This document shows, piece after piece, positions 32,651 to 34,935 of a stretch of 64,000 nt of DNA. Every line of letters starts with the position of its first letter. Within the stretch, counting starts at the first letter, position 1. Origin of the DNA: Comamonas sp. lk (GTDB taxonomy: Bacteria > Pseudomonadota > Gammaproteobacteria > Burkholderiales > Burkholderiaceae_C); NCBI GenBank assembly GCA_945869165.1, contig CAMBNY010000002.1, positions 1 to 64,000 of the forward strand, in the 5' to 3' direction. Position numbers and translations under genes: made by a program. The notes under the pieces were generated by a model. The model was not told the DNA's origin and searched no databases. It saw only the letters and a program-made list of their open reading frames with translations.

Positions 32651-33483
32651 GCAAGAGGCTCCTGGCGCGGCTGCTTGTAGCGTTCGTAACCCCACAAATA
32701 CTGGGTTGGGCACTGGCGCACCAAGCCTTCCATGGCGCTGTTGATGTGCGCGACCATGGAAGCAATATCTGATTGCATGTCCACATCGAATTTGCAGGCA
32801 TGGATGCAATAGCCGCGGCCCCAGGGGAGCCGCTCACCCCAAGCAATCACTACGTCGGCCCCGGTTTGCAAAACTAGTTTGGCCGCAAGCGTCATGGTGT
32901 AGGCCGGGCGACCCCACACCGGCGACCAAATCCCCATCCCCAGTGGCGGCACCTGATCGGGCAATAGACCGACGGCCTCGCCATTGCGCAATGCCTTGAG
33001 TAATTTACGCACGCCTTGCAAATTGGTGGGCACCGTCAGCATGCCCTGGCGACTGCGCGAGGCTTGCAACATCGACGCCAACCAAGCTTGCCTGGGCGGG
33101 CGGTACAAGACCGTCATCGGGCCATAGCGTGGGGCAAACAAAGTTGCCGCAGTCGGTGCCGTCACTTCAAAACAACCTAAATGCGGCGTCAAAAAAATCA
33201 CTCCTCTACCGCTGGCGTAAGCGGCCTGGACTACTTCCTGCCCATCCCAGTGCACCGGCACCGGGGCTCCAAACCACAAGCGGGGCGATTCGAGCACGCT
33301 ACAGCCCGCCTGCCCAAGGGCGCGCCAAGCCTGGCGCCAGCCATAGCCAGCTTGGTGCAACTGTTCCTTAAACCGCTGCCGGTAGTCCCGTGACAACAGG
33401 TAGGTCAGAAAACCCAGCAAAAAACCGGCACCATGCAATAGCCACAATGGGCAACGGGAGAGCAGACGAATCCAAAGATGCAT
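32647..33483 (-). CDS. Lipid A acyltransferase, LpxL/HtrB family (first of a tandem pair)
   Basis: A 278-residue LpxL-type acyltransferase. The HX4E motif is HLGCFE near residue 101. LYRPPRQAWL and the block VGLLPDQVPP (the usual DQ pair) fit the family. One membrane helix lies at residues 10-32. It forms a two-gene operon with the second copy through a TTGA overlap, suggesting the two secondary acyl chains of lipid A are added by this pair. The gene starts 10 nt from the predicted metK -10 element on the other strand. Confidence 0.93.
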   Translation of the reverse strand: MHLWIRLLSRCPLWLLHGAGFLLGFLTYLLSRDYRQRFKEQLHQAGYGWRQAWRALGQAGCSVLESPRLWFGAPVPVHWDGQEVVQAAYASGRGVIFLTPHLGCFEVTAPTAATLFAPRYGPMTVLYRPPRQAWLASMLQASRSRQGMLTVPTNLQGVRKLLKALRNGEAVGLLPDQVPPLGMGIWSPVWGRPAYTMTLAAKLVLQTGADVVIAWGERLPWGRGYCIHACKFDVDMQSDIASMVAHINSAMEGLVRQCPTQYLWGYERYKQPRQEPLA

Positions 33484-33493
33484 AGGGCTTTGC

Positions 33494-33499
33494 TAGAAT
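33494..33499 (+). promoter_or_regulatory. Candidate -10 element of metK
   Basis: TAGAAT closely fits TATAAT and lies in the 180-nt gap before metK. No good -35 is evident at the usual spacing (TCCAAA sits there). Transcription from here would begin near 33506, just at the start of the structured leader. Confidence 0.4.
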
Positions 33500-33505
33500 G
33501 AAACG

Positions 33506-33657
33506 GTCGCCGAGTTAAACGAGCAACTTGCAGGGCGACGACACAATCAACCGGCGTGATCGGCCAATTGTGCCTTGTCCCAAGGGGCAAATCTGCTAAA
33601 GCGTTCGCCAGCTCCCGAGATTGGCAACGCATGTCAACCTCATATTTTTTGGAGAGC
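33506..33657 (+). promoter_or_regulatory. Structured 5' leader of metK (candidate cis-regulatory RNA)
   Basis: Four stem-loops can be drawn in order. P1: GTCGCC (33506-33511) with GGCGAC (33534-33539), enclosing AGTT/AACT. P2: CACAAT (33542-33547) with ATTGTG (33567-33572), enclosing CCG/CGG. P3: CCTTG (33573-33577) with CAAGG (33581-33585), which competes with TTGTCC/GGGCAA (33575-33580/33585-33590). P4: GCGTT-c-GCCA (33601-33610) with TGGC-AACGC (33622-33630). The P4 loop contains CTCC (33612-33615), complementary to the GGAG ribosome site (33651-33654). I do not recognise a known SAM or SAH riboswitch consensus. Helices were found by eye. Confidence 0.5.
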
Positions 33658-33661
33658 AAGC

Positions 33662-34843
33662 ATGGCGAACGATTTTCTTTTTACCTCCGAGTCGGTGTCC
33701 GAAGGACATCCGGACAAAGTATCCGACCAGATTTCCGATGCGATTCTGGACGCGATTTTCAAGCAAGACCCCAAGTCCCGCGTCGCAGCGGAAACCCTTT
33801 GCAACACCGGACTGGTGGTTCTAGCCGGTGAGATCACCACCAACGCGCATGTGGACTACATTCAAGTAGCACGCGACACCATCAAACGTATCGGCTACGA
33901 CAACACCGAGTACGGCATCGATTACAAGGGCTGCGCCGTGATGGTGTGCTACGACAAGCAATCCAACGACATCGCACAAGGCGTGGACCATGCCTCGGAC
34001 GACCACCTGAACACGGGCGCCGGCGATCAGGGTTTGATGTTTGGCTATGCCTGCAACGAAACGCCCGAGCTGATGCCCGCGCCGATTTACTACGCACACC
34101 GCCTGGTCGAACGCCAAGCCCAGCTGCGCAAGGACGGCCGCCTGCCATTTTTGCGCCCTGACGCGAAGAGCCAGGTCACCATGCGCTATGTGGATGGGAA
34201 GCCGCACAGCATCGACACCGTCGTGCTATCTAGCCAACACAGCCCCGACCAGTCGGAGACCGCCACCAAGATGAAGGACTCGTTTCGCGAGGCCATCATC
34301 GAAGAGATTATCAAGCCGGTGCTGCCCAAAGAATGGCTCAAAGACACGCGCTTTCTGATCAACCCGACCGGTCGCTTTGTGGTCGGCGGCCCCCAGGGAG
34401 ACTGCGGCCTGACCGGTCGCAAAATCATTGTGGACACCTACGGCGGTGCCTGCCCCCACGGTGGCGGTGCGTTTTCAGGGAAAGACCCCAGCAAAGTAGA
34501 CCGCTCGGCCGCTTACGCTGCGCGCTATGTAGCGAAAAATATTGTCGCGGCCGGTTTGGCCAAGCAATGCCAAATTCAGGTGGCCTACGCCATCGGTGTG
34601 GCCCAGCCCATGAATGTGACTGTGTATACCGAGGGCACTGGCGTGATTTCCGACGAGAAAATCGCCGCGCTGATCAGCGAGCACTTCGACCTGCGCCCCA
34701 AAGGCATCATCCAGATGCTGGACCTGCTGCGCCCGATTTACGAAAAAACCGCGTCCTATGGCCACTTCGGCCGCGAAGAACCCGAATTCACCTGGGAACG
34801 CACGGACAAAGCAGCGGCGCTGCGTGCAGCGGCAGGCCTATGA
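33662..34843 (+). CDS. metK: S-adenosylmethionine synthetase
   Basis: A 393-residue enzyme making SAM from methionine and ATP. Signature blocks are [18 protein letters not shown] near residue 11, [12 protein letters not shown] near 120 and [19 protein letters not shown] near 270. I chose the ATG at 33662 since GGAG precedes it by 7 nt and family proteins start [11 protein letters not shown]. The C-terminus [11 protein letters not shown] is encoded by a 31-bp segment that is repeated 80 bp downstream. A structured leader precedes the gene. Confidence 0.96.
34806..34836 (+). repeat. Direct repeat copy 1 (inside metK 3' end)
   Basis: A 31-bp sequence beginning ACAAAGCAGCGGCGCTGCGT, encoding the end of MetK, recurs exactly at 34886-34916. 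The offset is 80 bp. Confidence 0.85.
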
Positions 34844-34885: not shown

Positions 34886-34916
34886 ACAAAGCAGCGGCGC
34901 TGCGTGCAGCGGCAGG
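34886..34916 (+). repeat. Direct repeat copy 2 (metK 3' end duplicate)
   Basis: An exact second copy of the 31-bp metK 3' segment, located between the metK stop and the GT9 gene. It still reads [11 protein letters not shown] followed by a stop in its own frame. Confidence 0.85.
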
Positions 34917-34935
34917 GCTGTAATACACAACGCGC

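Follow-up and report, generated by a model that had tools for sequence, protein, structure and literature searches.

The leader of metK, the gene for S-adenosylmethionine (SAM) synthetase, probably acts as a riboswitch that turns translation OFF in response to SAM and whose aptamer is a variant of SAM-II. In the 64-kb stretch of DNA analysed here (the window), this leader is the region between metK and a divergent gene for a lysophospholipid acyltransferase. Comparison of related leaders brings out a pseudoknot with a SAM-II pocket, an alternative helix (P3), a pairing of an anti-Shine–Dalgarno (anti-SD) segment with the Shine–Dalgarno (SD) sequence and a further pairing over the start codon; from there, we infer SAM as the ligand, an OFF direction and a kinetic choice made during transcription. 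A preliminary description of the same DNA had placed a structured cis-regulatory leader at 33506-33657, with helices lying between a candidate -10 element and the metK start. This feature is confirmed as real, with all named elements present where they had been placed, from 33494-33499 through the ATG at 33662, and its earlier interpretation as a whole is partly supported. That account did not include the pseudoknot, the start-codon pairing or the identity as SAM-II, nor did it recognise the second and third hairpins as an insertion in loop L3.

The metK locus and its transcript start

The metK gene occupies positions 33662-34843 of the plus strand and is identified by matches to TIGR01034 (589 bits) and Pfam PF00438/02772/02773, with its start codon, ATG, at 33662. 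The acyltransferase gene runs on the minus strand from 33483 to 32647. A -10 element, TAGAAT (extended TGCTAGAAT), lies on the plus strand at 33494-33499, and comparable hexamers recur in relatives: a -10-like hexamer (score of at least 4/6) stands upstream of P1, the first stem of the aptamer, in 201 of 208 metK leaders, at a distance of about 7 nt in 131 of them and 8 nt in 36. Since the box in the window is likewise about 7 nt ahead of P1, transcription should begin at the aptamer, and the predicted 5' end of the metK transcript is likely at or adjoining 33505-33506. This agrees with the earlier expectation that the start probably lies upstream of the helices. A sigma-70 scan site inside the leader (33621-33648, 9/12) had been the sole candidate of the first scan; the conserved -10 element ahead of P1 is better supported. 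The acyltransferase gene begins so close to the presumed start of the metK transcript, about 22 nt away (region 33460-33506), that the metK promoter overlaps the beginning of that gene. At the other end of the locus, the metK 3' end (acaaagcagcggcgctgcgtgcagcggcagg) is directly repeated just past the stop codon, at 34807-34838 and 34887-34918.

Conservation and distribution

Of 151 genomes of the family searched at the DNA level, 146 gave a metK-region match, and the upstream region was read out at 90 loci (Burkholderiaceae metK leaders). The sequence C[TCA]GCTAAAGCGTTCGC is present in all 90 of them, preceded by GTCGCYGAGTTA..GRRCWACTTGCRGGGCGAY at a spacer length that is highly variable. In other families of the order, the same element stands ahead of metK, with GCGTCGCC replacing GCGTTCGCC. 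A pattern scan of named genomes returned at least 120 stretches, 80 of which were typed; among these listed matches, 69 precede metK, and they come from Acidovorax, Comamonas, Polaromonas, Ramlibacter, Cupriavidus, Polynucleobacter, Dechloromonas, Thauera, Limnobacter and other genera. All leader counts given here refer to phylogenetically related sequences and are not numbers of independent events.

The evidence for structure beyond chance is comparative. The folding energy of the leader is unimpressive (z = -1.75, with 11 of 200 shuffles as good), and it is the invariance at 90 loci, the covariation and an independent covariance-model match that counter the earlier worry that short pairs found by eye might be accidental. 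The same findings bear out the view of the region as a structured regulatory leader.

Architecture of the aptamer

On comparative evidence, the metK leader is a SAM-II-type aptamer, namely an H-type pseudoknot with the helices P1, P2a and P2b, all on the plus strand. The P1 stem-loop (GTCGCC/GGGCGAC) pairs 33506-33511 with 33534-33539, the 3' segment GGGCGAC covering 33533-33539, and encloses the loop L1 (33512-33533). Within L1 lie a third strand, G-U-U (33514-33516), corresponding to SAM-II positions 10-12 in the register of the cmscan alignment to RF00521; the 5' strand of P2b, GAGC (33521-33524), whose partner is GUUC at 33603-33606; and the 5' strand of P2a, UUGCAG (33528-33533), which supplies U20, U21, G22 and C23 of SAM-II together with two extra pairs. 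The 3' strand of P2a, which is also the strand of the ligand pocket, is CUGCUAAA at 33593-33600 (PMC3764141, PMC6061858); its GCTAAA is invariant in 90 of 90 leaders, and G42, C43, U44, A45, A46 and A47 of SAM-II fall on 33595-33600. P2a thus pairs CUUGCAG with CUGCUAAAG, in the window 33528-33533 with 33593-33599, leaving U33597, the equivalent of U44, bulged.

Covariation in these helices, which the preliminary description had proposed as a check, was found in two alignments, one of 31 metK leaders (A1) and one that spans several families with 30 diverse sequences (A2). In A1, each of the 31 sequences forms the full set of 16 pairs in P1, P2a and P2b, and the 14 pairs followed in A2 are paired in 99.8% of cells. 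The outer pair of P1 is GC in 17 and AU in 14 sequences of A1, where another varies between CG, UG and UA, and outer P1 pairs change between UA, CG, AU and GC in A2. A pair of P2a is AU in 17, GC in 6 and GU in 4 sequences of A1 (AU 11, GC 10 and GU 6 in A2), and the middle pair of P2b remains 100% paired as GC in 15, AU in 14 and GU in 1. When the partner strands of A2 are slid out of register, pairing drops to 35-46%. Some of this covariation, especially in P2b, may reflect few events on the tree.

Such changes bear on the idea that the conserved blocks are DNA sites, a promoter and a repressor operator, with the helices incidental. The promoter does adjoin P1, and the acyltransferase gene diverges from the same region; however, the compensatory changes in P1, P2a, P2b, the P3 strand and the anti-SD/SD pair indicate pairing of RNA over up to 60 nt and across variable spacers, which leaves this explanation hardly credible.

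In the window, loop L3 (33540-33592, plus strand) carries a lineage-specific insertion, aligned in 11 relatives, followed by the A-rich AAAU. The insertion contains the hairpins CACAAT/ATTGTG (33542-33547 with 33567-33572) and TTGTCC/GGGCAA (33575-33580 with 33585-33590), and these are the second and third hairpins of the preliminary description. Of the two competing pairings proposed there for the third hairpin, TTGTCC/GGGCAA is conserved, its inner pairs being retained in 9-10 of the 11 relatives with CG/AT/GC change, whereas the CCTTG/CAAGG register is kept in only 1-4 of 11 and was rejected. The two-hairpin insertion is common to about a dozen relatives; 49 of the 90 lack it, and L3 is short and A-rich in these.

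Relationship to SAM-II and the likely ligand

The Rfam search that had been suggested for the window gave no match at E<10, RF00521 (SAM_alpha) included, because the L3 insertion and sequence divergence hide the aptamer. A loose-threshold scan of 20 relatives, chosen mostly for a short L3, returned RF00521 matches in 13, in register in the alignments printed; the best reached 26.8 bits (E 0.0093), and all stayed under the gathering cut-off of 36 bits. At the metK positions located by the DNA search, this cut-off was reached in none of 61 family genomes searched, 14 of which pass it elsewhere. In the opposite direction, a covariance model (R1) was built from 31 metK leaders with P1 as its only structure and with the window excluded. 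It matches the window at 33503-33564 with 41.6 bits (E = 3.9e-10) and, across the order, has matches in 265 of 399 genomes. Moreover, this metK-only model finds, at E about 1e-8, two leaders that exceed the Rfam cut-off, namely a metH leader (L141; 42.2 bits, E 1.4e-8, with 38.9 bits for RF00521) and a metZ-type leader (L142; 38.6 bits, with 37.2 bits for RF00521). Homology to SAM-II is therefore supported from both sides, by RF00521 on metK leaders and by R1 on accepted members.

Thirteen positions are completely conserved in SAM-II: U10-U12, U20, U21, G22, C23, G42, C43, U44 and A45-A47 (PMC3764141). Twelve of them are kept in the metK leader, and U11, U12, U20, U21, G22, C23, G42, C43, U44 and A45-A47 are invariant at the homologous columns of A2. 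The exception is position 10: among 203 metK leaders readable there, 201 have G, while U occurs in L016 (GGUUU) and in the f18 metK leader L134. In SAM-V, U8 forms a hydrogen bond with U47, which is itself the pairing partner of the SAM adenine (PMC6061858). By the alignment made here, U8 of SAM-V would correspond to U10 of SAM-II, which would place the U10G change in the second shell of the pocket. Owing to this change and to scores below the Rfam cut-off, the leader is filed as a SAM-II-type variant and not as a plain member of the class. The model of SAM-V (RF01826) has no match in the window, where the SD lies about 45 nt downstream of P2b instead of directly 3' of P2, and that of the SAH riboswitch (RF01057) has none in the metK leader.

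The ligand would thus presumably be SAM. The preliminary description had recognised no known motif and held that no ligand could be inferred; the first gives way to the SAM-II identity and the second to the pocket nucleotides, which point to SAM, while its guess at a SAM-binding leader was a good one. It is quite unlikely that the aptamer senses another compound, such as SAH or another nucleoside, as a consequence of the change at position 10. The complete conservation of U10 in SAM-II, the bonding of its SAM-V counterpart and the near-universal G10 of the present leaders speak for that possibility, but U11, U21, U44, A45-A47 and G22, which make SAM contacts or pocket triples, are all kept, and the two U10 leaders imply that both bases serve the same gene. 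The N1-H of G could also supply the same bond. Explanations that dispense with a ligand, in which the leader is bound by a protein, targeted by a small RNA or acts as a thermosensor, may invoke the long invariant strand as a binding site or a closed hairpin that could melt with temperature. Against the SAM-II topology and pocket homology, the covarying pseudoknot and the metK context, which make a sensor far likelier, they are very improbable.

Expression platform

Immediately after the pocket strand lies a switching strand, GCGUUCGCC (33601-33609, plus strand), invariant in 90 of 90 leaders to GCGTTCGC, which has three mutually exclusive partners. It provides the 3' strand of P2b, the 5' strand of P3 and the 5' strand of a start-codon sequestor formed with metK codons 1-4.

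P3, the fourth helix (P4) of the preliminary description, joins GCGTT(C)GCC at 33601-33609 to GGC-AACGC at 33623-33630 (plus strand), where its 3' strand, GGCAACGC, acts as a putative anti-sequestor. The full helix is found in 125 of 141 leaders of the GCGUU type, where shuffled loops would lead one to expect 6.3; for the GCGUC (sister) type, the figures are 48 of 67 leaders and 11.4 expected. The 3' strand is GGCAACGC in 105 of the 141 GCGUU-type leaders, and in 137 of these 141 the extra U in the P2b/P3 strand is accompanied by a 4-nt GRRC strand in L1.

The P3 loop contains the anti-SD, CUCC (33612-33615), which is complementary to the SD of metK, GGAG (33651-33654), placed 7 nt from the ATG, both on the plus strand. 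This complementarity, pointed out in the preliminary description along with the helix, is real and conserved: it exceeds that of shuffled loops in 124 of 139 leaders of one type and 55 of 67 of the other. Compensated variants also occur, with CTTCAGACTCCA x TGGAGTCTGAAG in L160, GCAGGTTCT x AGGAGCCTGC in L127 and GTTCC x AGGAAT in L104. As far as sequence goes, then, the helices covary, the complementarity is conserved and the predicted transcript start does not lie downstream of the helices. Less likely is the idea that the loop contacts the SD across an intact P4 in order to block translation, as the OFF state probably looks different. The more convincing reading of P3 is as the helix of the ON state, one that competes with the pseudoknot and keeps the anti-SD enclosed in its loop; in the OFF state, the anti-SD and SD would then form a nested pairing that arises when P3 is prevented.

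The third partner is the coding start itself. Codons 1-4 of metK begin with ATGGCGAACG (33662-33671, plus strand), and UGGCGAACG at 33663-33671 pairs with CGUUCGCCA at 33602-33610. The complementarity score of the start codon region is maximal (24) in 70 of 89 leaders, with a mean of 22.1 compared with 14.1 (sd 0.55) when synonymous codons are resampled. Where codon 2 encodes alanine, it is GCG in 75 of 80 leaders, as against 404 of 1469 alanines (27%) in the body of metK. A general preference for GCG at codon 2 is unsupported, as in neighbouring genes, taken from individual contigs, 4 of 12 codon-2 alanines are GCG (a small sample). Families with GCGUC leaders show no GCG codon 2 among the metK genes listed and may serve as a natural control, though one from clades that also differ in codon use.

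Proposed mechanism

Transcription would start at P1. In the SAM-bound state, the pseudoknot (P2a and P2b) would form between L1 and the CUGCUAAAGCGUUC strand, and SAM binding would protect L1 and GCUAAAGCGUUC. The pseudoknot would consume GCGUU and so bar P3, leaving the downstream anti-SD (AGCUCC) free to pair with the SD (GGAG; GGAGUUU in relatives), and metK translation would fall with the SD sequestered. Without SAM, the emerging GCGUUCGCC would pair with GGCAACGC in P3, the anti-SD would be held in the P3 loop, and the SD and AUG would remain open. In Burkholderiaceae, GCGUUCGCC has a further possible partner in metK codons 1-4, and the resulting closed hairpin, which is very stable, would cover the SD and AUG; the open state would then have to arise while the RNA is being transcribed or through the loading of ribosomes.

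Folding of the alternative states shows what this scheme requires. In free folds, the closed start-codon hairpin dominates both states, with a mean pairing to the start of 0.92, and its mean energy is -33.0 kcal/mol compared with -23.9 kcal/mol for P3. Because the closed hairpin is thermodynamically favoured, the ON state would have to be kinetic or ribosome-aided. When folds with P3 forced are compared with folds in which P2b is blocked, the SD is more open in 67 of 89 leaders and less open in 9, the mean unpaired fraction being 0.29 and 0.09, respectively. Only the forcing of P3 separates the SD states; blocking the P2b strand alone gives 0.094 versus 0.090 unpaired. For the window sequence taken alone, the states are not separated (0.23 with P3 forced, 0.25 with P2b blocked).

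The start-codon pairing could also be read in reverse, so that SAM opens the metK start. In an ON switch of this kind, a ligand-free hairpin of GCGUUCGCC x GGCGAACG would close the start, and the ligand would open metK by pulling GUUC into P2b. Its attraction is that the closed hairpin is the ground state of the free folds and that P2b competes for GUUC. However, the SD stays closed with the P2b strand blocked, since the anti-SD is independent of GUUC, and leaders of other families retain P3 and the anti-SD without any start-codon pairing. Activation by SAM of its own synthesis would be odd as well, known SAM-II switches being OFF switches (PMC1273637, PMC9373788). An ON switch is accordingly unlikely, and the OFF sign is favoured by that precedent and by the fit with feedback of SAM on metK.

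Relation to known systems

With SAM-II (RF00521; PMC1273637; 2QWY), the metK leader shares the H-type pseudoknot, the CUUGCA and GCUAAA strands with 12 of 13 pocket positions, a P2b at the homologous position (GGCC x GGCC in SAM-II, GAAC x GUUC or GAC x GUC in metK leaders) and a methionine/SAM gene context. It differs in G10, in a P2a that is two pairs longer, in scores under the Rfam cut-off, in the regulated gene, as metK is absent from the SAM-II papers compared, and, in the window copy, in the two-hairpin insertion of L3. The platform differs too: SAM-II relies on a terminator or on placing the SD within its pseudoknot, whereas the metK leader has a separate P3/anti-SD switch. The translational SAM-II element of Sinorhizobium metA (PMC9373788) and SAM-V (PMC6061858) have the same SAM-II/V fold and likewise hide the SD upon SAM binding, but with the SD in or beside P2, while that of metK would be hidden by a separate anti-SD. 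The SAM/SAH riboswitch of Rhodobacterales (RF01727, PMC2864571) is also a small pseudoknot ahead of metK, yet it has another consensus and is unmatched by the window.

For beta-proteobacteria, the main comparative study (PMC4239095) reports only SAH and metXZ elements and MetR, states explicitly that the SAH element is not at metK, and leaves the control of SAM synthetase open. Its metXZ element, which it does not call SAM-II, resembles the metK leader in being a pseudoknotted methionine-gene leader of the same bacteria, but it stands ahead of metX/metZ with terminators, and the copy in the genome studied here has U10. This copy, in the leader of metX (NF047916), is a second SAM-II-like aptamer of 25.1 bits, below the cut-off, located at G000 C11:43228-43304 (L091 1729-1805, minus strand) and followed by a terminator-like hairpin and a U run. 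Judged from it, the metXZ element looks like a SAM-II riboswitch.

SAM-II as such is already known in beta-proteobacteria, from Bordetella (PMC1273637), and Rfam accepts several elements among the loci studied here. In the main text of open-licence papers, no report was found of SAM-II ahead of a beta-proteobacterial metK; nor did they turn up a subtype with G10, a platform that combines P3 with an anti-SD, a link between such a leader and the codons of metK, or regulation of metK by SAM-II at all, as proposed here. If the present reading is true, a SAM-II variant ahead of metK across the order, below the Rfam cut-off, would close the feedback loop. Furthermore, the metK leaders would offer a natural test of the U10 position in the SAM-II pocket, and a switching strand with three partners would mean that synonymous codon choice is constrained by the gene's own riboswitch. 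More tentatively, and with somewhat less than even confidence, the leaders might be regarded as a distinct betaproteobacterial metK subclass of SAM-II in which G10 tunes the affinity for SAM, and in which the switching strand of Burkholderiaceae has gained its third partner by drawing in the opening codons of metK, the coding start co-evolving with the riboswitch.

Additional observations

Tandem SAM-II-type aptamers, pairs of which are already known (PMC9481103), were observed at L112, L139, L140, L144, L145, L148, L156 and L157 (also L103, L146 and L153). The first aptamer is of a type with GATTTG and the second is like the metK type. At several of these loci, the aptamers precede a small protein starting with MFDC or MYDC near a MATE-type exporter gene; one full-length and one fragmentary copy of this protein gave no Pfam match. 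In addition, RF02424 (Bp2_287, a Burkholderia sRNA) matches the opposite strand of SAM-II aptamers below its cut-off (L145 59-195, L140 224-382, L141 864-984 and others), and this family may be a SAM-II riboswitch misread in antisense. Finally, L104 carries a clear SAH riboswitch (51.4 bits) on its minus strand, at 77-175. It follows downstream of the metK leader at a distance of about 1.3 kb, and metK and the next unit there thus carry SAM- and then SAH-type switches in a row.
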